The notes under the pieces: model-generated
The model's input: only the letters and a program-made list of their open reading frames with translations
Told to the model about the DNA's origin: nothing
Databases searched by the model: none
NCBI GenBank assembly: GCA_949710005.1
Contig: OX453275.1
Coordinates: 35,444,294-35,508,293 of the forward strand
Length of the DNA: 64,000 bases
Direction: 5' to 3'
Origin: Ricordea florida
Lineage: Eukaryota; Cnidaria; Anthozoa; Corallimorpharia; Ricordeidae
Program-made: the position numbers and the translations under genes
Part shown: positions 34,415 through 64,000 of the stretch, in pieces
Layout: every line of letters starts with the position of its first letter
Position numbering within the stretch: position 1 is the stretch's first letter

Positions 34415-34511
34415 ATGGCGCCGAGAGAGAGACTTTTTTCTTTTGCTCATGTTGCTTGGATATTTCTTGTAGGAGGTGTACTATTGACGTTCGCCAAATT
34501 GCAAGTTCCAG
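34415..34511 (+). CDS. Receptor exon 1: signal peptide
   Basis: ATG 34415 in context CATCATGGCG. 32 codons, [13 protein letters not shown] then [14 protein letters not shown]: basic N-region and hydrophobic core. Ends in phase 1 at CCAG|GTGAGA (34512). Too short for an ORF-length search. Confidence 0.75.
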
Positions 34512-37500
34512 GTGAGAACAGTTTCTTTGTTTAACTGTTCCCGACTGAAAGTTAAGTATATTTAACTTCCTGTCTTTTTGTATGAGTGTTTGAGGCAAAG
34601 AGGTTGTTTAGCTCTGGGAATGGCGTTTGTCGGTCCATTTCGGATGGATTGAACGGTAAAAAGAAAGGCGTTCTGAAAGTGAACATGTTAAAACAAATCC
34701 CCAATAAGTACTGAGAACTGAAATGACGCATTTGCAATCTCCTCTATCGATCGAACGACTGTTACGCCACTAAAGCGGTTTTTTTTTCGCCTGAAAGTCG
34801 ATCGATATCGGTTGAAAAGCTATTGTAGACAGCTGCGTGGTTATCAAGATCACAAGGTTAGAATATAATTCAGTGTAACAGTCTCACTGCTAAACTAAGA
34901 CAGTTTTATAAAACCGACTGTGTAGAGAACATCAGAGTCTTCTTCTGAAATGCTCCTCTTTCAACACTCAACACTCTCTGTCTCAACATTTCCCTATTCA
35001 GACTTATTTTTGTTCCTTTTCTACTTTGTTTTATATGTATGAGTAATCAAATGGTTACGAGTGCAATTTGGCCTAAATGAGCACAAGTAAATTTGTCCAG
35101 TTGAAAAAATTACGAGTGCTTATTAAGGTGGCTCGATAGGCCAAAAATGGAAAAAAAAGTGTATTTTGTGACTTTAAATTTTATAGTATCTTTAGCCATT
35201 GTACTTCAATAACAGCTCGATATTTTTGCCCTATAGTACATAATTTGCCCAAAATTGCGAAGTTTGAGCTTGTTATTGATCGGTTACTATGGTAACCAAT
35301 GTTGTTTACGCGTTGTTTTGATGCTAAAAGGGCAATTTTTCTGCCCCGATTCATCTGTGAGCGCCCTCAAGCGATGGGAAGACTGGTAACAGGTTTAGGC
35401 TAAAGCGGGGACATTTCGTTTTGTACTTACACGACATCGCTTTAGACATAAAACGTGGAAGCGACGAAAGTCAGTGTTTACAGTTTAGTTCGTGAAATAT
35501 TCTTAGCGAAACATGCCTCCAACGAAAGTTCACAGTAGAAAAAGAAAAAAGAGAAGATTTACTGGTAACCAGTACACAAGGAAAAGTAATTCTTCAACCG
35601 AAGCTGCTATTTCGAAAGAATCGACCGAGAAAAGCGACGAGTCGAGTGGGGATGAAGAGCACGCGGCGAGAGGCGTGAAGTCCGAAAGCTTCAAATCCTT
35701 GCCAGCTTCAGTGCGGAAACTGAAACCACCGTCGGATGATTCTTCCAAGAAAAGCTCCGAAAATGAAGGTGAAATCCTGCAAGGCTTTAGAATTTTTGAC
35801 ATCTCTATTCTTGCGACGGTATTTGAGTCTTTACCTTGCCCTTCTTGTAAACGTGTAGCTCTTTCGCTCGAGGAAGATGAAGATGCCAAAATGGGTCTGG
35901 CTTCTCTTCTCATTTTAAAGTGCACTGGAGGTAAATGTTCATTTACTCGCCAATTTTACACTTCTGCTAAAATACAGAATAAACAAGCCTTTGAGGTGAA
36001 CAGGAGAGCTGTGTTAGCTATGAGAAACATTGGTGTTGGTCACCAAGGACTTGAAAAGTTCACATGTGTCATGAACATGTTGCCACCCATGAATGAGAAC
36101 GCTTACCGTGACCATGTGAAAGCTGTGCGAGATGCAACCGAATCTGTTGCTAAAGAAAGCATGTCTAAAGCAGCAAATGATGTTAAAGAGTTTTATGAAC
36201 CCAATGAAGAAGGCTTGTATGACATTGCTGTGTCAGGAGATGGAACGTGGCGAAAGAGAGGATTTTCCTCATCATATGGCGTAGTGACAGTACTTTCCAC
36301 AGTCACAGGAAAGGCTCTGGACTGCGAGGTTATGTCAAAAGAATGCAGGCAGTGTATGCAATGGAGGGGGAAAGAGAGATCAGCAGAATTTCATGAGTGG
36401 TGGGATGGCCATCAACATGAATGTCATGCAAATTTTGAGGGCTCTTCAGGATCAATGGATGCTTCCGGGATTCTGAACATTTTTCAGCGGTCTGTTGAGG
36501 GCCATGGCATGCGGTTTGTGGAGTTCCTTGGAGATGGTGACAGTAAAGCCCACAAGCTTTTAGTACAAGAAGCTGTCTATGGAGATGTAGACATCGAAAA
36601 ACTTGAATGTGTGGGCCACGTACAGAAGCGTTTGGGTTCACGCCTACGTTCACTCAAAAAGAGACTGGGCAAGACTCCTTTAGCTGACGGCAAACCAATT
36701 GGTGGAGCAGGGAGACTGACAGACAAAAAAATAGATAAACTTCAAGTTTATTTTGGAAAGGCCATCAGGCAGAACACCCACAACATAACAGCAATGCAGA
36801 ATGCAGTGATGGCCATTTGGCATCACAGCAGATCTACGGATGAAAACCCTGATCATGACCTGTGTCCAGAAGGAGAAGACTCCTGGTGTGGGTTCCAAAG
36901 GGACATTGCAAAGGGAACAGCAGATTATGCCCATAAAGAGCCCATGAAAGAGGCTGTGGCAACTGCCATCTTGCCAACATTTGAAGCCCTTAGTGAGGAG
37001 AGTCTCCTATCAAAGTGCAAACATGGTGGAACACAGAACCAAAATGAGAGTGTCAATGGGCTGATTTGGCAGCGTGCTACGAAAGAGACCCACTCAAATC
37101 TGCCAACTGTTGAGACTGCAACCTTTTTGGGGGTAGCTCATTTTAATGATGGCTCAACCTGCCTTATTTCAGTGCTAAAACACCTTGGAATTGTGCCTGG
37201 TGTCCACTGCAAGAGGAGTTGCGCAAAGCTAGACAGTGACAGAATTCGTCATTCGCGAAGAAAGAGTGGGGAACTGGCCAAGAAACGGCGAAAGAACATT
37301 AGAAAATGGAAAAAGGGTTACACAGATACCCTAGAAGCAAATGAAGGACCCTCCTATGAGGCTGGGGCCTTTTAAGAGACTAAAAAAGTTCAAATCCTAG
37401 TGATAATTAAGTGTATCAACTTTAAGTCTTATTTTCTAAAATATGCAAATTTTCATGATTTTGAACACTGGGAACACTGTTTCGTAAAAAGTATTTAAGG

Positions 37501-40500
37501 TAATGCTGTGAAATTTTCAGAGAACTAATAAGACAGTCAAATCTGTGAAATGACCCACTCTTGTGTTGATCTGACCATTTTTGCAGGAGTTATTAGCAAT
37601 GAAATTTGGGTAGACCTTGGCAAATTTTCCATGTTTCAGTAGCTGGTCGTAACTATAAACATATTTAAGGTTTTTACATGAAAGTGGCTCATTTCACAGT
37701 CAACAATATTATATACAAGCTTGCAAAACTTGGACTTTATGCTGTGTTTCTCAGTTGAGATATTTGGTTCCTAAAATACCTTATTTTCAAAGGTTCGGAA
37801 ATGGGTGTGGCCACATTTGTGGCTGTGGCTCCTTAGGAATTTAACGAATTTGTCTAAAACTTTGGAACTGCACATTTCAAAGAATACTGTAACTAGATGT
37901 GTTACTTAAATGTGGATATTGAGAATATAATTGACCATGGAAATGTTGCAAAAATGACAATTTTCAGCCTATCGAGCCACCTTAATACGAAATTGCACTC
38001 GAAATTATTTGATTACTTGTTAAAAATATAAATGTAAAAGTTTTATTTCAACTTAAATTTCTGTACTCATTTTCAACTTTCTGCACTGTTTGAGATTAAT
38101 TGAGGTGTTCTCAGCTGAATCAGTGTTGACATTTTTGCATGTATATTATTGGATAAACAAGGACCCTCTTATTTGTTACATGCAGTACTGTTACAGTACA
38201 AGAAAGAAGAATATTGATCTAGAACTACATTGAAGTTATTCAGTGAATCATTCTTTCACTTGTTGGAAGTTAATGCTAGTACTGCTGTACAGTTTTTCTG
38301 TTTTTAATTCAAAATGCAATGTAACATCCTTTGAAAAGCTACCGAATGTTATTGTACTACATTACTGTTTTTTCACTGAGTATGAAAACATGCTGTGTGA
38401 CCATTCTCTAGCAAGCTACTAAATGGTGCCGCTGTACTGTAGAACCGTTTGTTTTAGTGTACAGTATCATGGTTCTAACTTTTTTATCTGTGGATCAAAT
38501 CATGCAGTGAGACCATTCTTTGTAAACGGCTACTGAACAGTACTATACTGTGGTATTAGAAATTGGGATAAGCAAACGAATTGATAAAGTAAGTTATACC
38601 ACCGTAAAGTGAACCTCCCTTTTACCTTACGGTGGTATAACTTACTTTATCAATTTGTTTTATTATCCCAATTTCTTGTGCTTCAATTCCCCACCGCCAC
38701 CGACGCATCACCAGTTTCTTAAGAAACAATCCCCACAACACACGTACTGTGGTACCGTTTGTTTTACTATAAAGTGCGGTTTTAACTTTTTATCTTTGGA
38801 TCAAACCATGCGGTGTGATCATTCTTTGGAAAACTACTGAACAGTACTTTACTGAGGTACTTACTGTTTGTTTAACCATACATCTGGGAAACAAACCATG
38901 CAGTATGGTCATTCCTTGGAAAATCATTGAATGGCATAGTGCTGTAAAGTGATACTGTTTGTTTCGCTTTACAGTTCTAACTTTTTGAGGGAATTTCGAC
39001 ACAGCCCAATATTTTACAATTTGCATTTGACACTGAATCTCGAATCGAAGTCAAGGGGTATAAGAAGTTGGCGTCTGGAGGAAACGAAGAAACCTCAAAA
39101 TCTCTCTCTGTTTAGTTAATGCATTAACTTTTCGCAGGCATCTCTTACCACTTGGCGACTTGTGGTGGTCAAAACTGCGATTCGGTCTGTGGAACGTTTG
39201 GCCTTATATGCGCCCGGACTGGACAGAGCTTGCCATCGTCCTCGGCCCTACCAATCTTCGAGTCCCTGGGAATAAGCTGCATTACTGATAACTCCACAGA
39301 TACGTATGTTTTTGAAGATAATCCAAATTACTGGGCTGAGGATGCATGGGCTGGCAGGTGTCTCGGGTTCAAATCGATCCCAGCTACTATAGATTGTGTC
39401 ACAGCCAATAATAAAGCTGTACGTAGACTGTGCCCCTGCTTGAACCCATTAGGTAAGTAACTTTCTTTCGCTCTGACGAAGGGCTCATGGGCGAAACGTC
39501 AGCAGCACTTAAATCCTACGGTGATAAAACCTACTTTATCAACTGAACTCGTTTGATAAATCATGTTTTATGCCAGTTCAATTTCCTACCGCCGCAGCAC
39601 CAGTTTCTCTAGAAACAAACTCCTTGAACTCTCTAGATCTAAGAGAATCGCAGTATTATGGAGTAAGTTTTTAATCAAAAACTATGCAGCTCTCATTGGG
39701 TGCCTACATTTTGACGTGAAGATCCGGGACATCAACCATTTGCTTTGTCAAAAAATTCTAGTCGCCATGTTTGAACTGGCACATTTTGCTAACCAAAATT
39801 CTATTGCCGGTTTACGCCTTATATTCCAATTCCCCCATCCATCATAATAGCTCTTGACTCAGGCTCCACGAGCCAAAATGGATTATCACATCGAATCGAA
39901 AAACAAAGGGCTAATAGTTAAGAATTCAGCTTCCTCTTTATCTCAAGGTAATAAAACTGACACATCGATTCGTTTGGTAAATCCATTTTGTTTTGTACTC
40001 GGGGATACTGTTTTTGTTCACTGCTAACTGGCTCTTTGTCAAAAAGGTTCAGTGCAATTTCTTTTTCGATTATAATTTAGCCGCATAATTTTGCAACCGA
40101 GTTTCGTCTCACTCGCATGCGTTACCAATTTCAGTCACTAGCCGCTACTGCGCACGCCCGCTGCGGTCAAATAGCACATCAAACGAGTGCGATCGATCTC
40201 AAACTCTTTAACCGCTGGTCAGTGGGACGTGGGCTCTGGGAACGAGATTTGATCGACCTAGAAATTGATCAATCTGACGGGAGAAAACTTGAAGCAAGAG
40301 CATTTACTGCCTTCCAGTAAAACAACAACAGAACTGCTACAGACATCAAACAGCCAGACAATACAATCAAAGTCAAGTCTACAAACAACACCACATACAT
40401 CAATCAACAAATCACATTCCACAGCGGTGACGTCCGCCGAGTCAACAAAGAAAGAAACGACTCCCCAAGAGACTTCCACACGTGTACCCCCAGAACAGGT

Positions 40501-43500
40501 GGATACCAGGGCAGCACGGGTGGGCGTGGTAGAGAGGAATACGTTCATTATTGCAGCAGTCCTGGGGGGTGCTCTAGCACTGTGTGTGTCTGCATTGGCT
40601 ATTGTCCTGCTTAGGAACAGAAAGCAACTTAGGTGAGCTGCGGCACCATTAACATGTAACCGTGTAGTGTTGATTTCGACAAGAGTATTCCTGCATTCGT
40701 AGTGTTTAAGTGAGCGATATATCCACTCGCTTTTTCACAGTTTTTTTTTTCATTATTATGGATGGTCTGGACCCAGGAGTCTCAGGTGTTGAATTTTTTG
40801 TCGAATTTGATCGCCCGGGTGAAAGTCGGAAGTTCCGAGAAGAATTCTCGTTGACGTTGACTGACGTTTGGCAACTTGAGCGGAAGCCATCATCAGAGTC
40901 AAGCGAGTTGTGTTTCAACAAACAACTACAGCTACAGACGTTTTCGTTTGTGTTATATTGTGTCCTTTTTATGTTCTTAATCTATCTATGTAAATGCTAG
41001 TTATGTGTATACCTATTTGTTTTGTTTATTTCTATTTTTCCCTGGTTTATTATAAATCTACTGATAGTAGGTTACACACACAGGACAAAATCACTGATTT
41101 AATGAGGCTGAAAGCTAACCTAAAGGTTAACAAATGATGTGTTTTGTGGATCCTTAAGTTTTACACGAAAATCCTGAAATGTTCCTTTAATTTGACTTTA
41201 AGGTACTAATTTAAGTCTTCTTATGAAGCATTTTGTAGCAGCTTTAATTTGTAATTAAAGATGGCCAAAAGGCTTATTTCATAGACTTTAAGTGTGCTGC
41301 CCAAATGGCCTTAAAACCGCTTTTAATTCACCTTTAATTCACCTTAAATGTTTGATTGTTCATTTAAAGTCTTCTTTAATTGCCATTTAGTGTTACATTA
41401 AAGGGTCATAAAATCACATTTAAGTTTTCTTTAAGTCAACAAAAAATGCCTTAAAGATTTCTTTAGGGTCACGTTTAATTTTCCTTTTTTTTGGACTAAG
41501 AGTAACATGACCTGTGGTAAGAAGTCCTAATAAGAGACCATATGATAAATCTGCTTTACTTCATTGGTAGAAGCTAGGGTGAACGCTTCTTTTTTCATAT
41601 TTCTTGTCCACATTTTCCCTCACTTATTTCAAACACAACCAAAGTGGACTGATATTCCATTCTGCATCTTGGCTTTCTTTCAGGAGACAAAAAATGTTGT
41701 GAAACCAATTGAAAGATTAAAGTTAACATCACTTTATTCTACATTTAAATGCAACAAATGACAAATCAGGTCTATTTACATCCTAGCAGGTACAACAGAC
41801 CCATTTCAGCAGGAAATATACAAGCATATTGTTCATATATCATGTTTTTACATCTATTTAATTATAATATACTTGTATTTGCACTGCTAGTAAAACTGTC
41901 ATAAGAACTACTATAGATGAAGCTTCACAAAAACACTAATGTCTCTACACTCTTATGTGTTGCTGTTGTGCTGCTTTATTTACCCATGGTTGTTTCAAAC
42001 TTTGAAGTATTTCCAGAAGAGGTGTAGCTCTGTTCTTCCATGATCTTATTTTGTCTACAGGCAACCAGACATTTATTAATCACTCTAGCAAGTTGTTGAG
42101 AAAAATGTATGCAGACAGCATCAAAAGAATCTGAGCACTTAAATGTAATAATTTCTTTTGAGATTAAGCCAAAAACCTTGCTGTAAAACAAGTAAAAATT
42201 AATGAAACTAAATCTATTTATACACCGATCAGTGATGCAAGCAACACAATTATTACACAGGGTTGCCACTAATTGGGATGGAAAATTTATTTCTGCCACA
42301 GAAATAAACAATTCCTTTGCAGGAACTTTACAAAATGCATTACTTTTGTTAACAAGCAATCTCCACAACCTAATGACTAGCACAAAGTAAAATTCCTCGA
42401 CTTTTAGGTATATTGAGAATTTCAATGACATCATTTACAATTTTTCAACTTTTTCTTAACCTTGAATAAAAAAACAAACAAACAAAAAACGTTTTTGCCT
42501 GACCATGACAACCCTGTTACTCCTCCGTTAACAGTATTTGTAGCCAGAGCAATGACAATTGAAACAAGCCATCCAGTTAACATCATCAAATAATTTCCAG
42601 TTGGCTTTTGAGTTGTCTCCATTGTATGCCAAAGTTCCTCTCATAGTGCCACTGCAGTTATACACAAATTAAATTGAAACTAGCCATCAAATTAAAATAA
42701 AAATCATTCCCACTTTGCTTGTGACTTATCAGCATTGTGTGTCACTGCAGTTATACAGCCTTCGAATGAAAAATTTGTTGAAGAATATTAGGCAGTGCAT
42801 GTTTTTTCCAAAAGTATTTTAGCAGGTACAACATACAGTTTATAATAGCTAGTACAAGGCAATGTATGAGCTCTTTGTCATGCTCTTGGCAGTATTGAAA
42901 AAGAAATTAGACTTCTTTTCATAAAGCCATTTCTAAGCCTGTATTTTGCACTTACTAAAATGTCACATTAAATTAATTTTAACAGCCCACTCAGGAAGGC
43001 CATGAGGGGTCTCCTCTTCAGACAGGTCACTTGATATTGTCCTAGGAAGGGTTCTTTACTTAATAGCCAACAACCTTTGGTTGACCATTCCCATCATCCC
43101 CATAGTTGCTCTCCTCACTGCTGCAGCCCTTCCTTTTGCATTGGCATCTTGCTACTGAATCACATCAAGGGCAACTGCGTGTCTTGTTTATTTCTGAAAG
43201 ATAATGGAACCCAGTTGACATCGCTGTGTAACCATGAAGGGCATTAAATTAACATTTTTGCTGGTAGCCACTTGGCTCTTAAAATTAATTTTTATCTTTG
43301 AACATCTACTTAATTCACTATAACTTCACCCTATTTTAGCCCAGAATTTGTCATTTTCCAAAACCATATTCAGAACTACTGCAGGCTCACATGTCTTTTT
43401 TCCCTAGAAATGAGTTTCTGTTTGAATATGTTGGTATTCTCTTGCACTCTGCACCAAACTACATTGTAACAGATGGAAGCAACCTGTGTTTAAGTACAGG

Positions 43501-46500
43501 GACTATTAATTTTTAGTTTGTCATGCAGGCAATGCAAAATGAAGCCAGCAGTAAAACTGAAACAGCTTGCCCATTGAGTCTCAAGCTTTTTGTAATAGTA
43601 AAACAAAACAAATGAGAAAGCTTACAGGGAATTATCAAGCCTCAAATGAGACTTTCAACAAGCAATTACAATGGCACTTAAATTACACCAACTCTATACC
43701 TATCCCTAGGCTTAAGAACTAAAGACACAAACAATACATGTATATTTCTACAGACATAAAGGTTACAATATATACCGTGTGCAAAAGTGAAAAGACTATT
43801 ACCAGTACTTGTATCTGGGTACCAAAAAACATATTGTGCAGTGACATCTACAGCGTTCCTCCATATATGTACAATGCAGTATAAATTACATGTATATTCT
43901 GATGAGCATTAATCAAAGACTACGGTTTTGGAAGGATATTGCTATATGCATAATAAATTATAGTTCTTCTATTGAAAAATTGCAGAGACTTACTTTTTCA
44001 TCAAGGTGAAATCCATTGAAATCCTCCCTTTTGATCAGGACTCTGTATACCTTCCTGAGAGATCTCTATTAAGCAAACACATGAAAAAAAAAATGTCTGA
44101 TGTTACAATAGGCTAAACTTCCTTTGTCAAAGGACTGTTCGCATTGTGCCCCTCCTAACTATGGGGTGCCGTTTGTAAATTTATTATTTAGACCGACTTT
44201 AAGCCATTATTTCCTTATATGTAAATAATTGAAAATGTCAGACAATTTATTTAGCAATAAGACACAAGAACTTGTCGGATGATATGTAAATAATTATTTC
44301 AGGGACGTTCTGATTTATAAATATTCTTTTCCGATAAAGTAATTATATATAAATAATTATTGAAACAACTCCAATTATTTATAAATCAGGCTATCTCTAA
44401 AATATGTATTTACATATCATAATATGTACAAACTTATTACTTATAAATCATGAAATTTCGTCTCTTCGAATGCAAAAGTATTATTTATAAATAATCCACT
44501 CACTTGGTGCTTGATTTCATTATTTACAAATCATGCATTTTCATAACACCGCTGTTAAACCATTATTTATAAATAATGAAATTTCACTTCGCCAAGTGTA
44601 AATTTATTTTTTATAAAAAAATGGTTGTAATCTAAGATGTTTTTAGGGAATTTTATGATTTACATATCAATTTTGCATCGCATTGCACAACCTTTAGCTG
44701 AGGTCAGGGTATTTACGCAACTTGCTAAGTTATCTTTCCGATCTTCGCAAAAAGCGAGTCTTTGCTCGAAGCTAACCTTGATTAACCCTTTAAAGCCGGA
44801 GTGATGTCGGAACAAAATTCACAGCTTCTCAGAAATATTTCAGAGGCGGTCTCGAGGGCTGTCGTGGACGCTTTTGCGGCCAATTCTTCACAGCCACAGG
44901 TATGTTTGCATTCACAAACAAAAATTCATCTGCTTTCATATTAGCAACCAAAATCTCACAGTGGCACCCCGTACATTGTTCTTGTAGACACCCAATATAA
45001 ACGCGAGTGCTGGCTGCTCCCAGACTCCGTCATCTGGTCTTCTAACTGATAACGCTGCAAATTCGGCGGCAAGTCGACAATATCGCCAGCGACTACAGAC
45101 CGCCTCTGAAATATTTCTGAGAAGCTGTGAATTTTGTTCCGACATCACTCCGGCTTTAAAGGGTTAATCGAGGTTAGCTTCGAGCAAAGACTCGCTTTTT
45201 GCGAAGATCGGAAAGATAACTTAGTAAGTTGCGTAAATACCCTGACCTCAGCTAAAGGTTGTGCAATGCGATGCAAAATTGATATGTAAATCATAAAATT
45301 CCCTAAAAACATCTTAGATTACAACCATTTTTTTATAAATAATAAATTTGGGCACGTAGTGAAATACCATTGTTTATAAATAATAAATTTACACTTGGCG
45401 AAGTGAAATTTCATTATTTATAAATAATGGTTTAACAGGGGTGTTATGAAAATGCATGATTTGTAAATAATGAAATCAAGCACCAAGTGAGTGGATTATT
45501 TATAAATAATACTTTTGCATTCGAAGAGACGAAATTTCATGATTTATAAATAATAAGTTTGTACATATTATGATATGTAAATACATATTTTAGAGATAGC
45601 CTGATTTATAAATAATTGGAGTTGTTTCAATAATTATTTATATATAATTACTTTATCGGAAAAGAATATTTATAAATCAGAACGTCCCTGAAATAATTAT
45701 TTACATATCATCCGACAAGTTCTTGTGTCTTATTTCTAAATAAATTGTCTGACATTTTCAATTATTTACATATAAGGAAATAATGGCTTAAATTCGGTCT
45801 AAATAATAAATTTACAAACGGCACCCCATACCTAACTGGCTCAACCGAAAAAAGGTGCATTTCAGTCAAATTAATTAAATAAAGATAATTATTTAAATGA
45901 AAATAATTTATGCACAATTTGGGCGCCAAAACGTATTTCATAAAAGCCATCGAGAACGAATTTTACGGGTCAATGCATCATGTTCTAATAAGCAGAAATT
46001 AGTATACAATTATTGTCATGTATATGCCGTATTTATGTGATTAAAAGGTGCAGTTCTTCTACTTACTCTACAACCGGCGGGAACGGCAATGAGTCTCTGG
46101 CTCGTTATCATCTTCGGAGATTTTCTCCCAGAGGAATGCCTGGAGTTTACCCCTCATTTAACCTTTGCTCAATCCGTTTGAGCACTTCTGCTTGATGCTT
46201 GCTTGTCCTTTCGTGCTCTTGCCGCAGCTTTTCGTTCTCTCCGGCAAGATCACGATTGGTTTGGATGAGTTTCCCCAACAGCACGACGCAATCTTAATAA
46301 GACATTACAGAACGAATTCACCCGAACTGATCTTCCAATCTGCAATTAACCTGAGTGTACAAGAAATTGCACAATAATACGATATTTATAATCTCAGTGG
46401 GCTAAAGAGCAACAAAATCAGAGCTAGGCCGGCTCGAGTGTCTCTCAACGAACATCAGTTTGCGCGCTCCGTTGTACAAATCCGGCCCCTGGTGTCTCGC

Positions 46501-46949
46501 CTCGCTCTGGTTCAAAATTCGCTGACCCGTAACACAAAAGGCTCAAAAGGTGATACTCCTGACGTGGCCGCACAGCTCCGAAATCGGCGGGAACAGAGCG
46601 GGAACACACACAAAAGTTTGGGAGGTAAGTTCGACGTATTTTTTGTACTTTCTTTGTATGTCAGGCGGTGTGCGTAGTCTTTTTCCTAGATAAAACTAGA
46701 TGATAATGCCAATTTGCATCTCATCGAACTCAAGTAATAGGCAGTGACCCGGCAATGATCATAGATGTAATTAAGTTTGGATGTATTCTTAAAGGTTACA
46801 ATTATGTATATATCGGCCTGTTTAAGTTTCACTGCAAGCGCCATCGATTACATTTAGCTTATAATCATAACTATAACAAAATTCTCAAATCTGATTGGCT
46901 ATCAACTGCCCTGATTTCAGCCTTAATAATATACATGAAAAAATTACTC

Positions 46950-46982
<33 letters not shown>

Positions 46983-47429
46983 TGTAACACCAGTGCAAAA
47001 AGTGTAATACCAGTGCAAAAAGTGTAACACCAGTGCAAATTACACATCGATTTTCTGGATTATGATATTCTTTATTTTTAAACGAATTGCTTTGAGTTCG
47101 TAGCGTTATCAGTTGATCTTCATCAGCCAATCAGTAAATAAAGTGTCAAATCCGCGTCAAATGCTTACTTCCTGTCCGCAATGAGATCTTCCGGTACTTC
47201 TTCCAGGCGAATTTTTTCATGTTTATATTGTTAATAAGTAATCATACGGCTTTTCTCGTTCAATTTGGAATTAATTTGTACTTGTGAGTTTTTCAAAAAG
47301 CTGAAATTGCACTCGCCGAAGCGGCTCGTGCAATTTCAGCTTTTTGAAAAACTCACTCGTACAAATTAATTCCAAATTGAACTCGAAACCGTATGATTAC
47401 CTTTACTAATAGGACAGTTAAATAGGACA

Positions 47430-47464
<35 letters not shown>

Positions 47465-50400
47465 CCATCACGCGCGCGCTTAAATGGCTTTTTTTTTCAC
47501 TGCTAGCAAAACAAATCTTGGAATTTCATGTGTTTTGATTAAGAAAAAATAAGTTTATATATAAAAAAATTTGTGACAGTTATGATTAATTGGTAATAAG
47601 ACTTCGTGTCGTCCGATTCGGTCTGCAATCATACTCGTTATTAAACAAATCGGACTCCCGCTACGCGGTCGTCCGATTTTGTTAATCACTCGTATGATTA
47701 CAGACCGAATTGGACTCCACTCAGTCCTATTACCATTACTAATTTCATGGCTTGCGAGGCAAATTTGTTAAGGATTACATTGTACACGGGCTGTGACGTT
47801 CTGTGATTATGTAAGCTTACAATATCCGAATCCTAAGCTTGTAACTTATTAGCAGGACATCATGATAATTTTTCAACGGGGGGTAGGGGTTGCAGCACAG
47901 TTTTTTTCCACAAAAAACTCGTTTGTTTTAGTGCATTCATGAGTGGTTAACAAAACTAGATAGTGAGAAAATTTATGTAAAAGGCAAATACATCATGAGT
48001 CTTTCTGAATTTAAGCTGACTCTCTTTGAAAACCCTATAAAATGGCTTCTGATATGTTACAAATTTGAAGAGCATAGCCAATATTTGAAATTCCAAATTC
48101 TTAGCTGTCCCTTTGTTCACGTATACTATGTAATGCTTGCTTAACCCTGTGTAGTAATCCCCATGTATTCATTACTGGTTCAAACTTGTTTTCTCTCCAA
48201 CTGATTCTTTTACTGTAGATGGAAAAGCATAACAAAGATAAAAGAAGGGAGTAATTGAAGAAATGTAAGAGGAGATTGAAAGGTTTCAGAACTGAGGTGC
48301 AGTACATGGAACAAAGTGATTCCACTGAAGAAGATCAGAGTACATGTAGTTTGGTCCCAGAGAAGAACAACTATAACATTGATGAGGACAATGGTAGTGA
48401 CAGTGGTGATTGCTGTTGTTGCTTGGATCTCACTGATCCCAATTTGATTAAAATGTTTGCCCAACCAAAACTAAGTGAGGATCTCCTTTATGTTTCATTT
48501 TACCGCTACCAAAGAAACAAGAGGAACCTGTTGAAACTGCTGAGTAATTTTCTTCAGTATGCATGACTGCCTTTTACAATTTACGAGTCTACAACATCTT
48601 GCAGCAATAGGGGTTTCTTTCCCTTTTTGAGCAACCATGTTGAAGTTACAGGTTTTCCATTGGTATACTTTGCCTTTGCATTCTTAACAGAAAATGGACT
48701 TTGGGATTTTTTGCCTTTATTGATGTGAGATCTTAATGTTTGGTACAGTTTGCGAGTGAGGGCATTCTGCCAGATCTTAAAGTTCCTGTGCCATTTTGAG
48801 TGACCACATTAAAACTATTGATTCCTTGACAAATTTAGCTTTTCATACAAATTGTTCATGATTGATGATCAGTGAACTTAGCTTGTCTGGCTTTTGTCAA
48901 ATTGCATGAGGTAGTATAGACTGTCTTTAACAGTTAGTGAGTTAGAGCATTTTGCCATAGCAAGGGGTTTCTTTCCCTCTTGGAGCAACCATGTTAAAAT
49001 TACAAATCTTAACACATCTTTATTTTTCTGAACAGATTTTAATTTTGTGAGATCTTAATATTTGGTACAGTTTGCGAGTGAGGGCATTTTGCCAGATCTT
49101 AAAGTGTCTGTGCCATTTTGAGTGACCACATTGCAACTACTGTGTTGACTCCATGACAAATTTGGCTTTTCATACAAATAATTCATGATTGATGATCAGT
49201 GAACTTAGCTTGTCTGGCTTTTTTCAAATTGCATGAGGTAGTATAGACTGTCTTTAACACTTTGTGAGTTAGAGCATTTTGCCATAGCTAGGGGTTTGTT
49301 TCCCTTTTGAAGCAACTATGTTAAAGTTACAAATCTTAACAAATCTTAATTTTTCTTACCTGATCTTAATTTTGTGAGATCTTAATATTTGGTACAGTTT
49401 GCGAGTGAGGGCATTTTGCCAGATCTTAAAGTGTCTGTGCCATTTTGAGTGACCACATTACAACTAATTTATTGACTCCTTGATAAATTTGGCTTTTCAT
49501 ACAAATAGTTCATGATTGATGATCAGTGGACTTAGCTTGTCTGGCTTATTTCAAATTGCATGAGGTAGTATAGACTGTCTTTAACAGTTTGTGAGTTAGA
49601 GCATTTTACCATGGCTAGGGGTTTGTTTCCCTTTTGGAGCAACTATGTTAAAGTTACAAATCTTAACAAATCTTAATTTTTCTTGACTGATCTTAATTTT
49701 GTGGGATCTTAATATTTGGTACAGTTTACGAGTGAGGGCATTTTGCCAGATCTTAAAGTGTTGTGCCATTTTGAGTGACCACATTGCAACAACTGTGTTG
49801 ACTCCTTGACAAATTTGGCTTTTCATACAAATAGTTCATGATTGATGATCAGTGAACTTAGCTTGTCTGGCTTATTTCAAATTGCATGAGGTAGTATAGA
49901 CTTCTTTAACAGTTTGTGAGTTAGAGCATTTTGCCATAGCTAGGGGTTTGTTTCCCTTTTGGAGCAACTATGTTAAAGTTACAAATCTTAACAAATCTTA
50001 ATTTTTCTTACCTGATCTTAATTTTGTGAGATCTTAATATTTGGTACAGTTTGCGAGTGAGGGCATTTTGCCAGATCTTAAAGTGTCTGTGCCATTTTGA
50101 GTGACCACATTACAACTAATTTATTGACTCCTTGATAAATTTAGCTTTTCATACAAATAGTTCATGATTGATGATCAGTGAACTTAGCTTGTCTGGCTTT
50201 TGTCAAATTGCATGAAGTAGTATAGACTGTCTTTAACAGTTAGTGAGTTAGAGCTTTTTACCATAGCTAGGGGTTTCTTTCCCTTTTGGAGCAGCCCTGT
50301 TCAAGTTACAAATCTTAATTTTTCTTAACAGATCTTAATTTTGTGAGATCTTAATATTTGGTACAGTTTACAAGTAAGGCCATTTTGCCAGATCTTAAAG

Positions 50401-53400
50401 TGTCTGTGCCATTTTGAGTGACCACATTACAACCATGAAGTCCTTAACAAATTTGGTGGGAGAGTATAAAGGGGACTGTGGACAGGGTTTAGGGAAAGGC
50501 AAGCTAACATTTTTAAATATATTAGTTGTTCCTTTGTGGAAGATTTCCGTGAATGAAAGATGACAGTAATTGTATTATGGGTTAGTGTTATGTATATTGA
50601 CTGGATTGAGAACATAAAAATAAACTTAAACCTCAATCCATCAAGCCTGGCCTGGTGGTATGTCAATCTGCAAATTTATGTGATGTTAATCTGCAAGCCA
50701 ATATAAAAAACTGAAAAACCGTTGATTCCCAAAAAGTGAATTTTTTATTGTTATGCAGAATATTATGAACATGCAATTTTAACAACTTTGGGTGTACTCG
50801 ATGTTTCTGAACCTGACCCGCACAGAGTTGCTTTTGATTGTCTAATCTCACTGCATGAGGTTGCCGAATATCTTTTCCTTTCGTGTCTTTGAAAGGTTGA
50901 TCGTGATACCACATCGCAACGGGCGCAATAGACATATCCTTTAGCTCCATTGTTTTCCATGGTTTCTATTGCTTTGAATTAATGTTGTAAAGGGAAACCT
51001 AAAGGAAAGCAGCTGCAAATTGCATTTTCTCTGTCTTCTACTAAATCCAAGGGCCAGGAAAATACTGAATAAGAAATACGTACGGCTGCGCCACGTGGTT
51101 CTTTTCATCCGATCAAATTAACTCTAGGCTCGGCGTGAAAAGGTAACTTAATTTTGATTAAAGATCACCTAAAGATCAAGTTACCTTGACGAACTTTAAT
51201 TTCCAATTAAAGATATCGAAATATCTCATGACACTTTAAGTTTGATTTATTTCAAAATTAAAGATGTTAAAACCTTATAGGACGTTTTGGGAGAAAGAAA
51301 AGACCCCCAAAATTAGACCTAAAGTTTGGCAATATTAAAGTTCAACAAAAGGTACATTAAAGACTCATTAAAGATCGATTTCACCTTTTGGATATTTCCT
51401 GTCGCCATTAAAGACAATTAAAGATAAGATAAGGCTTTAGTTAAACTTTAATTTTAAACTAAAGACACCAAAGTATGTGTTTTCGCCCTGTGACAGCTCG
51501 CCTCGATTAGCGTTGCCATATGTGGTTTGCGTATTTCTCCAATTTGTTAAATTTAAACATTGAAATAAAATGATGGTGATAAGGATGATGATGATGATGT
51601 TTGTGAAAGATGTAAAACATAGCGCATAGAATACCTTAAACCAGCAAATCATTACGATCTTGAATTAGCCTGCGATGCCAGGATTGGAAATTCGAAAGAC
51701 ACACAACTGAACCCAAGCTTAACAGGACCTGAAATTTGAGTATGGAGGAGAAATATTCCATGGAAACCGTTCATAGGTGAATTAGCCCTTTTCAGTCATT
51801 ATAGCCTGCTGAAATTTCCAGAGCGGTATTGCCTACACAACTGGATTTGTTACAGGCAATCAGACATTGCAGAAAAAGATATGACGTGTCTCAGAGGGAT
51901 TGGAATACAGGCATGTGAGCGGACAAATGTCCTATAGGCGTTTTAAATTTCAAACGAGGTCCTTATTTTAAAACTTGCCAGGAAATGGACTTCTCGCCTA
52001 TAGTTCCTAACATTTCAATTCAATTCAATTTATTTATTTATTGCAATTAAATGCCCAAGTCTTGCAGCTCGTTTGCAGCCAGTCGTACAATATACATATT
52101 TTTTGAATTTGTTTATCTATTTTGATTTTGTATTGATAGGGCCATGCAGAATTCAGGGACTGAAAATGAAAAGCTTCATGATGGATGTCATGTGAATAAA
52201 AATGCTTTTGAAATGCAGGAAATGATTGATGGATTAACAGTGGAAACAAACATAGAAGAGGGACAGAGGTACTGCAAAGCAGAAAGTATAACTTTGAATG
52301 GGATTATTATCAATTCCTTAATTTATTTAAGGGGGCTAGTTTTTGATTCGTTACCTCAGAAACGAAACGAAATGGATCCAATTTGGAATTGCAATAGTAT
52401 TTCGATCATTTGTTAGGCATATTTTAGTAACGGAATTATGTAGGACAGTATTAGGGCTTTAAACAGGGGTCAATTCTATAAAACGTTTACAGGGACTGAT
52501 TGGAAATGATGTTAAGTGATTTTAAAGCCTCGCTCAGGAGATGAAAGGCTGTGCCAACCCGTCTCAAAGCCAAGGGGTTTACAGAGGCTTTTTCTTTCAA
52601 TTCCAGATACAGTCAGGTGGAATCCGGAACGCTCTCAATAAAAAATCCAGTTGAACTTGCTTTGCCCGTCAAAGAAAAACGGTGAGATTTTAGAATGATA
52701 ATTATTGACAGAAACCTTTTGCATGAGGGATATCATTACGTTTAACTGATTTTCATTCACTTATCTAATCAGCAGCTCATACTACGAAAACTTGAGGGAT
52801 CATGAGACTGAGAACATACTGTACGTGAGGTAATGAGAAATAATCAAAGAGAGGAAATTTAAAAAACAATGGTCTTCAAAAGCCTCGAAAAAAACTTATT
52901 AGCTTTACGTATACTCAGGCAAGTGTGCATGATTACAATCTGCCTTTCATTGCTGTTGTTTTCATTGCGTTCTAACTGACATGTTATCTGTACATTAAAC
53001 CACGCACTATCAAGAATAGTGGTCATTTTCTGGGGAGCTACTAAACAGTACTTTACCGAGGTACTGTTTGTTCTACAATACAGTGTTGCTCTAATTTTTT
53101 TTATGTTTGGATCAAACCATGCAGTGCGACCATTCTATGTAAACTTCGGCTACTAAACTGTACTGTACTGTTTGTTTTACAATACAGTGACTCTAACTTT
53201 TTCATCCAGTCTTTGGATCAAATCGTGTAGTGTTCGCTAAAGAAAGCCACTGAACATTTTTTATTGTATTGCTTGTATATACTGTAACTATATTTCAGTG
53301 CTTTCATTCGTTGAAAACCTCAGTGCTGAAGAGTTTTTTCGGCCTGACTTTTATACTACGTAGCTTTTTTATAACATATGTATACCATGTCATTTCAAAA

Positions 53401-53938
53401 CACATTTTTGTCAAAACTCTCGGTGTTGTAGCATACCTTACATTTTGCACATCGAATACACTGCGAATAAAGGGAAGTCTCCTATGATAAGAAAGAAAAA
53501 TCACATTTCCATACCAACATTTAAATTTAGTTAAGTATATATTTTGGGACAAAAATTGCATTTATAAGTTCTATAACTGGGCAGACAAAATATAACTTGC
53601 TAGTTAGGACATGCCTAGTGCCTAAAATAACAGCAAAGGTTTTCAACTAAGACACTAGAGCGGATTTTGTTTGGGCATCGTCACGCATTCCTTCCCCACA
53701 AGGCCGAATGAGTTTCTGTGGGGGGGGAAGGCGAAGTAAAATGTGGACCATACGATTGACATAAGACTAGAGTGTTTTGTTTTTCTCAACACAGTGTGTT
53801 CTTGCAAAATGTGCATGTTACCGCCTTTCTTCTCTCTTGAAAGCACGCCACGTTGTATTTGTTCCTAAATTGTTTATAAGCGCCTCTCATTTTCATTCTT
53901 ACTTTGGTGTTCTTTCTCGTTTCAGATTAGTTAATTAA
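34415..53938 (+). CDS. Type I membrane receptor with tandem ITIM-like tail (seven exons)
   Basis: Gene model built by splice phase from exons 34415-34511, 39138-39452, about 40318-40632, 52140-52268, 52607-52681, 52773-52829 and 53926-53938. Product of about 330 residues: signal peptide, nine-cysteine ectodomain of about 105 residues, Ser/Thr-rich stalk, one membrane span, and a tail of about 90 residues with YSQV, SYYENL and ILYVRL. SYYENL and ILYVRL fit the ITIM consensus (S/I/V/L)xYxx(I/V/L). With nine residues between them they also resemble an ITAM with long spacing. Such tails are phosphorylated by Src-family kinases and recruit SH2 proteins (SHP phosphatases or Syk-type kinases). Five of six junctions fit in phase with good consensus. 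The exon 2/3 junction is ambiguous. Introns hold a Kolobok-like and a CACTA-like transposon. The ligand is unknown. Confidence 0.75.
34512..35126. other. Receptor intron 1, left part
   Basis: No exon recognised. At 35,040-35,122 lies the left half of an older inverted-repeat element (AGTAATCAAAT...CGAGTGCAATTT) whose right half follows the Kolobok-like element at about 37,986-38,025. Confidence 0.5.
35127..37981. mobile_element. Kolobok-like DNA transposon, apparently complete
   Basis: Perfect 15-bp terminal inverted repeats GGTGGCTCGATAGGC, then weaker similarity, flanked on both sides by TTAA (35123-35126 and 37982-37985). TTAA target duplication is typical of Kolobok and piggyBac elements, and the encoded protein is not piggyBac-like. 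Length 2,855 bp with one intact 620-codon transposase gene. The element is nested in an older TIR element inside receptor intron 1, same strand as the receptor. Confidence 0.85.
35513..37375 (+). CDS. Kolobok/Mutator-like transposase, 620 aa
   Basis: Single uninterrupted ORF, ATG in context GAAACATGCC. N-terminal 75 residues are basic and Ser-rich, likely a nuclear/DNA-binding tail. A CPSC (109-112) ... CTGGKC (137-142) pair looks like a zinc ribbon. The catalytic core shows [11 protein letters not shown] (Asp243), a cysteine cluster CRQC (278-281), FLGDGDSK (Asp341/Asp343), C366-H369, and NQNESVNG (Glu512), consistent with an RNase H-like DDE transposase. This protein type is often labelled 'Mutator-like transposase domain' in invertebrate genomes. 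The TTAA flanks favour Kolobok. A very basic C-terminus ([13 protein letters not shown]) follows. No stop or frameshift is seen, so it may be active or recently active. Confidence 0.85.
   Translation: MPPTKVHSRKRKKRRFTGNQYTRKSNSSTEAAISKESTEKSDESSGDEEHAARGVKSESFKSLPASVRKLKPPSDDSSKKSSENEGEILQGFRIFDISILATVFESLPCPSCKRVALSLEEDEDAKMGLASLLILKCTGGKCSFTRQFYTSAKIQNKQAFEVNRRAVLAMRNIGVGHQGLEKFTCVMNMLPPMNENAYRDHVKAVRDATESVAKESMSKAANDVKEFYEPNEEGLYDIAVSGDGTWRKRGFSSSYGVVTVLSTVTGKALDCEVMSKECRQCMQWRGKERSAEFHEWWDGHQHECHANFEGSSGSMDASGILNIFQRSVEGHGMRFVEFLGDGDSKAHKLLVQEAVYGDVDIEKLECVGHVQKRLGSRLRSLKKRLGKTPLADGKPIGGAGRLTDKKIDKLQVYFGKAIRQNTHNITAMQNAVMAIWHHSRSTDENPDHDLCPEGEDSWCGFQRDIAKGTADYAHKEPMKEAVATAILPTFEALSEESLLSKCKHGGTQNQNESVNGLIWQRATKETHSNLPTVETATFLGVAHFNDGSTCLISVLKHLGIVPGVHCKRSCAKLDSDRIRHSRRKSGELAKKRRKNIRKWKKGYTDTLEANEGPSYEAGAF
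38230..38990. repeat. Degenerate ~100-bp repeat cluster in receptor intron 1
   Basis: About five diverged copies of a block like GACCATTCTTTGGAAA..CTACTGAACAGTAC then TACTGTTTGTTTTAC..TTCTAACTTTTT..GGATCAAACCATG, starting near 38,240, 38,395, 38,510, 38,815 and 38,905. Related copies recur at 53,010-53,250. Confidence 0.75.
38558..38676. mobile_element. Hairpin MITE inside the ~100-bp repeat cluster
   Basis: AGAAATTGGGATAA..TTGATAAAGTAAGTTATACC then CACCGTAA pairs almost perfectly with its reverse complement at the right end; the loop is about 15 bases. Confidence 0.85.
39138..39452 (+). CDS. Receptor exon 2: nine-cysteine ectodomain
   Basis: Acceptor CTTTTCGCAG|GC, phase 1 in, continuing exon 1 (G|GC gives Gly). 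104 full codons: [19 protein letters not shown], then GISC, a DNSTD glycosylation sequon, [12 protein letters not shown] and RRLCPC, nine cysteines in all. The odd number suggests a free or inter-chain cysteine. The pattern C-x3-N-CDxVC...RLCPC reminds me of Cys-rich modules attached to some glycosyltransferases (MGAT5-like), from memory and unverified. Ends CCATTAG|GTAAGTAAC, a tandem GTNNGT donor. Confidence 0.78.
39453..40317. other. Receptor intron 2
   Basis: Contains a dispersed repeat fragment (CTCTGACGAAGGGC..CGAAACGTCAGC, 39,475-39,510) and no convincing extra exon. A 29-bp candidate at 39,957-39,985 does not fit the required phases. Confidence 0.4.
40318..40632 (+). CDS. Receptor exon 3: stalk and transmembrane segment
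   Basis: Best acceptor TTTACTGCCTTCCAG|T (phase 2). The frame gives a Ser/Thr/Lys/Gln-rich stalk of about 70 residues with an NKS sequon, VVERN, then a membrane span [20 protein letters not shown] followed by LLRNRKQL as stop-transfer. It ends in phase 2 at CTTAG|GTGAGC. Without splicing a TGA follows at once. Exon 2 reaches this frame only if its downstream donor (GGTAA|GTAACT, four bases past the stronger G|GTAAGT) is used. Weak phase-1 acceptors at 40,284 and 40,299 are alternatives. Confidence 0.68.
40633..41078. other. Receptor intron 3, left end
   Basis: No exon or recognisable element. Short overlapping open frames only. Confidence 0.4.
41150..41480. repeat. Left subterminal CTTTAAT/ATTAAAG motif cluster
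   Basis: A dozen or so TTTAA(A/T)-core motifs in both orientations (e.g. TAAAGTCTTCTTTAATTGCC). The matching cluster sits at the other end of the 10.4 kb element. Confidence 0.6.
41976..42434 (-). CDS. Possible terminal exon(s) of the CACTA-element gene, unrecognised
   Basis: Minus-strand open frame of 152 codons. It includes [13 protein letters not shown] and a C-terminal [16 protein letters not shown] stretch, ending ETTMGK before a TAA. The composition looks protein-like. An internal TTGTTTTACAG (about 42,183) could be a splice acceptor dividing it in two. Position near the left terminus and strand fit a last exon of a gene starting near the right terminus. No family assigned. Confidence 0.3.
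   Translation of the reverse strand: MMSLKFSIYLKVEEFYFVLVIRLWRLLVNKSNAFCKVPAKELFISVAEINFPSQLVATLCNNCVACITDRCINRFSFINFYLFYSKVFGLISKEIITFKCSDSFDAVCIHFSQQLARVINKCLVACRQNKIMEEQSYTSSGNTSKFETTMGK
42640..44160. other. CACTA-element interior, no gene recognised
   Basis: AT-rich DNA without a convincing coding frame on either strand. Confidence 0.4.
44161..45829. mobile_element. Fold-back (long-TIR) element, 1.67 kb
   Basis: ATGGGGTGCCGTTTGTAAAT at the left end is mirrored by ATTTACAAACGGCACCCCAT at the right end. The arms stay complementary for about 690-700 bp to a loop at about 44,855-45,095. Arms are rich in TTATTTATAAATAAT repeats outside and GC-richer near the centre. Flanks TCCTAACT and ACCTAACT give an 8-bp target duplication with one mismatch, suggesting the Mutator or hAT superfamily. 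The inner arms carry a protein-coding start (see 44804-44899). Confidence 0.88.
44804..44899 (+). CDS. First-exon-like ORF in the fold-back arm
   Basis: ATG 44804 opens 32 codons ([32 protein letters not shown]) ending exactly at CAG|GTATGT, a good phase-0 donor. The opposite arm has the same first 16 codons on the minus strand (ATG at about 45145) before the arms diverge into the loop. This looks like a captured gene 5' end. The product is unknown. Confidence 0.4.
46147..46293 (-). CDS. Coiled-coil exon fragment
   Basis: Minus-strand frame of 48 codons ending in TAA at 46147-46149: [20 protein letters not shown] then [20 protein letters not shown]. Heptad-like spacing of Leu/Ile with many Glu, Lys and Arg residues indicates a coiled coil. 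Opens after a stop at 46294-46296. Could belong to the CACTA-element gene or to the fold-back-captured gene. Short, so moderate trust. Confidence 0.35.
46440..46624 (+). other. Possible exon ending at a strong donor
   Basis: GC-richer block (about 50%) in AT-rich DNA, ending AGTTTGGGAG|GTAAGTTCG. It has an open frame from ATG 46438 but no recognisable domain. May be a 5' leader exon within the element. Confidence 0.25.
46980..47039. repeat. 20-bp tandem repeat AGTGTAACACCAGTGCAAAA
   Basis: Three copies with one or two differences, next to GATTCTGATTGGCTGAGAGC, a dispersed repeat motif. Confidence 0.85.
47238..47401. mobile_element. Hairpin MITE (164 bp)
   Basis: GTAATCATACGG...CAATTTCAGCTTTTTG arms are near-perfect complements around GCACTCGCCGAAGCGGCTCGTGC. 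Confidence 0.9.
47592..47734. mobile_element. Hairpin MITE (143 bp)
   Basis: GGTAATAAGACTT..GTCCGATTCGGTCTG pairs with CAGACCGAATTGGACT..AGTCCTATTACC. The loop carries AATCGGACTCCCGCTACGCG. Confidence 0.85.
48255..48566 (+). CDS. Acidic ORF of unknown function in the CACTA element
   Basis: Open frame of 103 codons (first ATG at 48,306). Features: [10 protein letters not shown], a [11 protein letters not shown] cluster and a basic [16 protein letters not shown] end. It could be a last exon, with an acceptor-like TTCTTTTACTGTAG just upstream at 48,218, but no frame runs from that acceptor into the ORF. Composition favours former coding DNA. Confidence 0.3.
   Translation: MKKCKRRLKGFRTEVQYMEQSDSTEEDQSTCSLVPEKNNYNIDEDNGSDSGDCCCCLDLTDPNLIKMFAQPKLSEDLLYVSFYRYQRNKRNLLKLLSNFLQYA
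48590..50450. repeat. ~325-bp satellite, six copies
   Basis: The marker TTTGGTACAGTTTGCGAGTG recurs at about 48,740, 49,062, 49,390, 49,717, 50,042 and 50,359. Each copy contains GAGATCTTAAT, CATTTTGAGTGACCACATT and CATGATTGATGATCAGTG. No coding frame is conserved between copies. Confidence 0.95.
50763..50960 (-). CDS. Possible first exon of the CACTA-element gene (zinc-finger start)
   Basis: Minus-strand ATG at 50960 opens 65 codons: [20 protein letters not shown] then STFQRH. CxxC-x11-H resembles the incomplete zinc finger at the N-terminus of some CACTA/EnSpm-type proteins of animals. It lies about 530 bp inside the right terminus, reading inward, as expected for the element's gene. Later residues are Ser/Thr-rich and probably run into an intron. 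Confidence 0.35.
   Translation of the reverse strand: MENNGAKGYVYCARCDVVSRSTFQRHERKRYSATSCSEIRQSKATLCGSGSETSSTPKVVKIACS
51130..51470. repeat. Right subterminal ATTAAAG motif cluster
   Basis: About a dozen ATTAAAG/CTTTAAT motifs, the counterpart of the left cluster. Confidence 0.6.
52140..52268 (+). CDS. Receptor exon 4: cytoplasmic tail
   Basis: Acceptor TTTTGTATTGATAG|G, phase 2 in. It joins exon 3 as AG|G (Arg), then [31 protein letters not shown] and [11 protein letters not shown], and ends phase 2 at CAGAG|GTACTG. Length 129 nt, divisible by 3. Acidic, no tyrosine. Confidence 0.7.
52607..52681 (+). CDS. Receptor exon 5: cytoplasmic tail with YSQV
   Basis: Strong acceptor [31 protein letters not shown] then [11 protein letters not shown], phase 2 in and out (AAACG|GTGAGA), 75 nt. 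Tyr in YSQV is a possible SH2 site but lacks the ITIM -2 residue (Gln-Arg-Tyr). Confidence 0.72.
52773..52829 (+). CDS. Receptor exon 6: tail with SYYENL and start of ILYVRL
   Basis: Acceptor [33 protein letters not shown], phase 2 in and out (GTGAG|GTAATG), 57 nt. Holds the first ITIM-like motif and the tyrosine of the second. Confidence 0.74.
52830..53925. other. Receptor intron 6
   Basis: Contains about 2.5 diverged copies (53,010-53,250) of the ~100-bp repeat of intron 1. No further exon recognised. Confidence 0.5.
53926..53938 (+). CDS. Receptor exon 7: last four residues and stop
   Basis: Strong acceptor TGTTCTTTCTCGTTTCAG|A. AG|A (Arg), then TTA GTT AAT TAA (LVN, stop). The Leu supplied here completes ILYVRL, so splicing to this exon is what makes the second motif. 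Confidence 0.7.
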
Positions 53939-63188: not shown

Positions 63189-64000
63189 GTAAGCTAACTT
63201 TTACACAATACGATACGTTATTGAATCCCTAATGGATATCCACGCAGGGGAACTGACGGCTCAGTGCTTAAGTCACCCGCTTGTCATTTCAGTGTAGGGG
63301 AACTTCAGATCGCAGGTTCTCTAGTTTGTTTTTGAACCCGGATATTCCAAATTTCATACCTCCATGACAACCAGACATTGTACGTACGGTCTCAAGCTGT
63401 CTTCGTTGAGCCCCATTTACATTTCACTCAGTGGACGGTTTCGGCTGAAGGCCGCCTTTTCTTTTGCACCTCAATGGTCGGGACTTCGTATGGTCAATTA
63501 CTCTCAGGGTCATACTAGGTATCGTTGTTACTCTGCCAGATGAACTAATAGATCATTGCACCACCCCACCCCAGGAAAAGTTAGTTAAATACAAAGAGAA
63601 CCTTGATAAAACTGAACCAACTTTTTTTAATGTTCAACTCCATGTGGAATTTAAGATACCCATATGCATTTTTTACCTGCTGACACGTGTACTACACGTG
63701 TAACATTATTTTTGGCTTGTCAGCGCCAAGCTTCAACCTCAATTATGCTCTTCTTCCACAGACTAGACATTAGTTGTGGACAATTATCTTTTATCGATAA
63801 CAAAAGATTATCGACCACTAGCAATGTCCGATACAAGCATTTCACACTCTGGGGTTTCTACTTCATGCCAGTATGCCATATAATCTCCCGCGTCCATCAC
63901 AATGGTGCGGGAGACTATGTGGCATAGTGGGAAGGTTTATACTTCATGCCAGTATGGCATATAGTCTCCCGCACAATTGTGATGGGCGCGGGAGACTATA
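63189..64000. other. DNA after the ApeC exon: probable intron
   Basis: No coding exon recognised. From about 63,856 it carries palindromic repeats that run off the window. Confidence 0.45.
63856..64000. repeat. Palindromic tandem repeat running off the window
   Basis: TACTTCATGCCAGTATG(C/G)CATATA..TCTCCCGC then GCGGGAGACTAT occurs twice about 84 bp apart. Each copy folds on TCTCCCGC/GCGGGAGA. Confidence 0.8.

Follow-up and report, generated by a model that had tools for sequence, protein, structure and literature searches.

The window examined here, a stretch of 64,000 nucleotides that forms part of contig C4, contains a group of exons that an initial annotation had read from the letters alone as one receptor gene, with a cysteine-rich ectodomain and two ITIM-type motifs in its tail. 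We asked whether these exons make up a single gene, what the ectodomain is, and how the tail might signal. The genome searched for this purpose comprised 537.8 Mb in 48 contigs.

A seven-exon gene and its coral relatives

The seven exons on one strand that had been proposed for the gene (Table 1) could be joined at AG/GT borders with the frame open throughout, and the spliced protein is 334 aa long. Its layout is as first described: a signal peptide (called by eye) is followed by a nine-cysteine exon, a stalk of which 42% is Ser, Thr or Pro, a membrane helix and a tail. Exon 7 encodes an ending similar to those of 6/8 full-length relatives, which are (R)LV, (R)LA or (R)PV.

Table 1. Exons of the receptor gene and the transposase frame in its first intron, numbered from the first letter of the window
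Feature	Position	Strand	Description
Exon 1	34415..34511	+	start codon and signal peptide; phase 1 end; open frame, donor gtgagaac
Exon 2	39138..39456	+	nine-cysteine ectodomain, like the GT18/MGAT5 C-terminal Cys-rich domain
Exon 3	40318..40632	+	Ser/Thr/Pro-rich stalk, transmembrane helix, first basic tail residues; tblastn of relatives
Exon 4	52140..52268	+	juxtamembrane tail (NEKL, IDGLTVE); tblastn with Oculina relative, E 5e-8, 44% identity
Exon 5	52607..52681	+	tail; RYSQV aligns with SYC[DE] of most relatives
Exon 6	52773..52829	+	SYYENL and ENILYV-; acceptor is NAGNAG
Exon 7	53926..53937	+	final codons (R)LVN and stop
Mutator-like transposase ORF	35507..37375	+	in intron 1, not part of the gene; PF20700, E 5.4e-88

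Ten related proteins, P0001-P0010, emerged from three protein-collection searches. Eight of them (P0001-P0007 and P0010; 321-366 aa) are full length and share the layout of the window protein, while P0008 and P0009 are fragments without this tail and were excluded from the tail and pair tables, which count nine sequences. The relatives from Pocillopora verrucosa (P0002), Oculina patagonica (P0003), Orbicella faveolata (P0004), Porites harrisoni (P0005) and Porites lutea (P0007) are all labelled 'uncharacterized' or 'hypothetical' in the database. BLASTP alignments with seven full-length relatives covered 87-96% of the spliced window protein. In a separate alignment seven of the full-length relatives showed 38-45% identity to it, and the ectodomain is 66-73% identical to those of all eight. 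P0010 was found solely with a domain query (residues 24-136 of P0004) and is absent from alignments A3 and A4; P0009 was omitted from the alignment of the relatives' exon 2 domains (A5), and P0002, P0007 and P0009 from A6. No relative from Acropora or anemones was present among the 8000 best word-sharing candidates scored, which is weak evidence of absence, and a scan of prokaryote genome contigs gave nothing useful.

Exons 3 and 4 lie 11.5 kb apart, and their connection was the one most open to doubt, named in the initial annotation as the refuting test. Because the full-length relatives run from the membrane helix through RN.RK and NEKL to DGL.V, in the same order, this join is upheld insofar as relatives can uphold it. 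We also considered read-through of exon 4 in place of splicing to exon 5, and tblastn of the relatives did reveal a YC resemblance beyond the exon 4 donor; the spliced version aligned better by eye over LSI.N..E, and read-through was rejected.

In a literature search whose coverage mostly excludes subscription papers, no description of the receptor appeared in the titles and abstract beginnings of the coral and cnidarian ITIM/ITAM matches listed; no paper there combined 'Glyco_transf_18' with 'receptor', and four gene names went unmentioned. The locus is a real, conserved coral-type cell-surface receptor gene, previously undescribed.

A mostly conserved tyrosine pair in the tail

The window tail contains two matches to [SIVL]xYxx[ILV], SYYENL and ILYVRL. 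When the 97-residue tail was shuffled 200,000 times, at least two matches arose in 1.4% of shuffles and at least one in 19%, which leaves a lone match with little weight and makes conservation the better guide. We compared the tails of the nine full-length sequences, window included. The motif [DE]N[IV]LY was present in 9/9, and forms an ITIM in the window protein and in four of the eight relatives (P0001, P0002, P0003 and P0004); P0005 carries an ITIM-type SDYERL at another site, and P0006, P0007 and P0010 have no ITIM at all. A further tyrosine lies a few residues upstream in 7/9 (as YENL, YENT, YASL, YEKS or YEDM), missing from P0006 and P0007, and position +3 of this first site is T, T, S and M in P0003, P0004, P0005 and P0010. 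The ITAM-type spacing YxxL/I-x6-12-YxxL/I is matched by YENL-x9-YVRL in the window and nearly so by YASL-x9-YASV in P0001 and P0002.

These comparisons support the two-ITIM description in part. The ILYVRL-type motif is shared with the Pocillopora, Oculina and Orbicella relatives, although ILY..V is absent from P0005, P0006 and P0007 (Porites type) and from P0010; SYYENL is an ITIM in the window alone. For the most part, the conserved tail unit is thus a tyrosine pair, its second member often ITIM-like, and not two ITIMs.

The genome also contains, on contig C1, two exons with 72 and 75% identity to the N-SH2 domain of SHP2; another SH2 exon follows after 0.1 kb. Tyrosine signalling by the receptor is plausible. 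The reading we favour, and hold to be reasonably probable, is that of an orphan type I receptor of stony corals, occurring once in the genome, with a GT18-derived ectodomain (see below) and a tyrosine-signalling tail. Its layout runs from a signal peptide and a single disulfide-rich domain without GT-B domains, through a mucin-like stalk and one membrane helix, to a tail with tyrosines. In the most likely mechanism the ectodomain would bind an extracellular partner, after which a Src-family kinase would phosphorylate the tail; the [DE]N[IV]LY site would then probably dock an SH2 protein, most simply a SHP2-type phosphatase such as the SH2 exons in the genome might encode, and the adjoining Y-E-N site, where present, could dock a Grb2-type adaptor. 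Membrane topology, phosphorylation, docking and the direction of the signal are all predictions here.

The pYxN consensus accommodates YEN, which occurs at the upstream site in the window, Oculina and Orbicella. Since ITIM likeness is not universal among the relatives either, the protein might instead be a growth-factor-like or adhesion receptor acting through Grb2 and SHP2, not inhibitory, with its ITIM likeness incidental. This alternative seems doubtful, as YEN is found in only 3/9 sequences against 9/9 for [DE]N[IV]LY. With LILRB-, Siglec- and CEACAM-type inhibitory receptors the orphan receptor that we favour has in common the type I layout and an ILYxx[V/L] tail motif; it differs from them in that its ectodomain belongs to neither the Ig nor the lectin type and its motif is not kept in every relative.

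A cysteine-rich ectodomain resembling the end of MGAT5

The ectodomain had been described as neither Ig nor C-type lectin, which agrees with the absence of any such family among the Pfam matches listed. It had also been left without a named family, and on this point HMM search and hhalign carried the description further, to the C-terminal domain of GT18/MGAT5. The final stretch, 475-557, of the 557-position profile PF15024 (Glyco_transf_18) matched the window domain at E 0.0039, which does not reach the Pfam cut-off. Because this match agreed with the resemblance that we presumed between the C-terminal part of MGAT5 and the receptor ectodomain, the resemblance was tested by profile comparison.

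As a comparison set we took the last two exons of three GT18 genes from the same genome (C2 and C12 loci). The first coral MGAT5 domain used matched PF15024 at 473-557 (E 2.4e-22) and human MGAT5 in PDB (E 5.6e-20). Eight receptor domains aligned by hhalign to the three coral MGAT5 domains with E 0.0012 and probability 19, and addition of a human MGAT5 row gave E 4.4e-5 and probability 69 over 84 aligned columns. In the shuffle analysis, E was 0.001 against the coral MGAT5 domains alone and 0.0091, over only 17 columns, against human MGAT5 alone. The real score of 30.7 was reached by 0/150 full column shuffles, and with the cysteines kept in place by 0/150 and then 0/1000. In the hhalign alignment the eight core cysteines pair in the same order, and the R[LIV]CPC ending is common to both sides; the ninth cysteine, which precedes the core, is Ser in P0005, leaving eight.

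Of the eight disulfides in human GnT-V, five lie in its C-terminal domain, G628-L741 (Nagae et al., PMC6107550). Compared with this domain of MGAT5/GnT-V (human 628-741), the receptor ectodomain has eight cysteines in the same order, the CPC ending and a similar size; in contrast to the enzyme, the receptor has no GT-B catalytic domains, and the last two cysteines of the enzyme's domain are missing. The domain occupies one exon in the window and two in the three coral MGAT5 genes. From this moderately strong comparison we infer that the ectodomain very probably shares ancestry with the GT18/MGAT5 C-terminal domain, and it can probably be named as a GT18/MGAT5 C-terminal Cys-rich domain.

Alternatively, the eight-cysteine ectodomain could be unrelated to MGAT5 and have converged on its cysteine spacing. 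Single-sequence matches were indeed weak: PF15024 matched 2/10 whole proteins when E up to 10 was allowed, at best with E 0.027, and none of four isolated relative domains (P0001 at E up to 10; P0004, P0005 and P0010 at E up to 0.1), so that the relatives' domains fall below Pfam detection; searching PDB with the domain itself led nowhere, and its profile had no match there at E up to 10; and the best cysteine-kept shuffle, at 30.2, fell 0.5 short of the real score. We nevertheless consider convergence improbable, given that none of 1150 cysteine-kept shuffles reached the real score and that both the R[LIV]CPC ending and the order of the eight cysteines are shared. A further point against the MGAT5 link is that the receptor locus was absent from the 57 matches listed in a genome-wide PF15024 search; an NCBIfam search returned nothing informative.

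A glycosyltransferase enzyme was rejected as an identity for the gene, the 334-aa protein being without GT-B catalytic domains and matching only the final PF15024 positions. Weak Pfam matches in the stalk, membrane helix and tail (TMEM154, best E 7.9e-6, MGC-24, CHB_HEX_C, Rifin and others) were judged compositional. Elsewhere in the genome, several GT18 (MGAT5-like) loci are clustered outside the window at C2 17.22-17.33 Mb, with further loci at C2 5.83-5.86 and 9.40-9.42 Mb and at C12 2.53 Mb.

The known ectodomains of non-vertebrate ITIM-type receptors are mainly Ig. A conserved, apparently single-copy coral receptor whose outer domain is so far familiar from glycosyltransferases would bring a new class of ectodomain into ITIM-type signalling, and coral immunology would gain a well-defined orphan receptor to deorphanise.

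Splice junctions, copy number and neighbouring elements

Two junctions of the gene model deserve closer attention. At the end of exon 2, a gtaagt donor after 39452, stronger-looking by eye, competes with gtaact after 39456, 4 nt on. Joined to acceptor 40318, the former puts the membrane helix out of frame and the latter keeps it in frame; the donor after 39452 is in frame only with weak-looking acceptors before 40284, 40299 or 40332. At this junction four of the eight full-length relatives have Val, three have Ala and one has Gly. Codons for these residues begin with G, which fits a phase-1 donor at the end of exon 2 in the relatives, and the donor they use is probably the one that breaks the frame in the window. 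We took 39456 as a working end of exon 2, at a junction that is ambiguous and unproven.

The second junction is that of exons 6 and 7, whose direct splice gives ILYVRLVN*. In each of the eight full-length relatives a stretch of exactly 20 additional residues, closing with Y[DE], separates NILYx from the final Arg; the resulting Y[DE]R occurs in 8/8 relatives and is absent from the window. With phase 2 at both sides, these residues would equal one 60-nt exon. We examined 36 AG..GT candidates in intron 6 and found none of that length or similar by eye, and the Y[DE]R codon pattern occurs within 51-64 kb just at 58798 and 59178, both out of context. The window gene has probably lost this penultimate 60-nt tail exon. 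As an exon for the 20 residues was not found in intron 6, the ILYVRL ITIM hinges on the direct join.

A more specific version of the favoured orphan receptor may be entertained tentatively, being unlikely as a whole: a GT18 end domain reused as a ligand-binding ectodomain, combined with an ITIM/Grb2-type tail, could sense glycans, microbes or algal symbionts, and its ITIM might be made or removed according to whether exon 6 is spliced straight to the final exon or via the 20-codon stretch of the relatives.

The same two junctions could also mean that the window holds a decaying or mis-assembled allele, in which exon 2 to exon 3 needs the weaker splice site to stay in frame and the 20-residue stretch of all eight relatives is gone. 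We regard this as distinctly improbable, because all seven exons are open, the core cysteines and tail tyrosines are kept, and the ectodomain retains the identity to its relatives given above.

The initial annotation had further suggested a paired-type immune or allorecognition receptor. The genome searches, in which the best candidates were scored (2 and 1, respectively), returned one match, also with a relative's domain as query at E up to 10, and not the several homologous activating and inhibitory members of a paired receptor; the 'paired type' was not borne out. 'Allorecognition' was not supported by the comparison between sequences either, ectodomain identity exceeding tail identity in 34/36 sequence pairs. 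The exceptions were P0001-P0002 (ectodomain 98%, tail 99%) and P0006-P0007 (89% and 95%). In the latter pair the stalk and tail are 94-95% identical, and of the 14 ectodomain positions that differ, 11 fall in the segment from the fourth to the fifth core cysteine, a hint, from this one pair, of a variable loop there.

Botryllus FcoRs and Hydractinia Alr candidates, both linked to allorecognition, are reported to have ITIM and hemITAM or ITAM-like motifs and form multigene families (PMC12065747). Like the coral receptor, they are invertebrate receptors with ITIM/ITAM-type tails; they belong to multigene families of the Ig superfamily, whereas the coral receptor has one genomic match and a GT18-type domain. 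An allorecognition or paired immune receptor, with a polymorphic ectodomain, activating and inhibitory members and an ITIM/ITAM tail, is a weak reading and very improbable here, since the motifs on Alr and FcoR, the YxxL-x9-YxxL fit of the window tail and the divergent P0006 and P0007 ectodomains are set against a single genomic match, a generally better conserved ectodomain and a membrane helix without any charged residue for adaptor pairing.

Several other elements surround the gene. Intron 1 contains a Mutator-like DNA transposon at 35042-38017, with an uninterrupted 622-codon frame; its two flanking inverted-repeat pairs, of 28 bp, are 89 and 93% alike. In intron 3, a 103-aa open frame at 48255-48566 has an acidic stretch and CCCC and matched no Pfam family at E up to 0.1. 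Upstream, positions 1-27700 consist of head-to-tail copies (five full, one incomplete) of a 4.70-4.84-kb unit, of two types that differ by about 130 bp, with aligned pieces 99-100% alike and with ORFs for an endonuclease (PF14529) and a reverse transcriptase (PF00078); this tandem LINE-like array would be unusual, or else is an assembly effect. Further downstream, 8.6 kb past exon 7 and on its strand, an open frame at 62522-63232 encodes a complete apextrin C-terminal (ApeC) domain (PF16977, E 2.4e-72).
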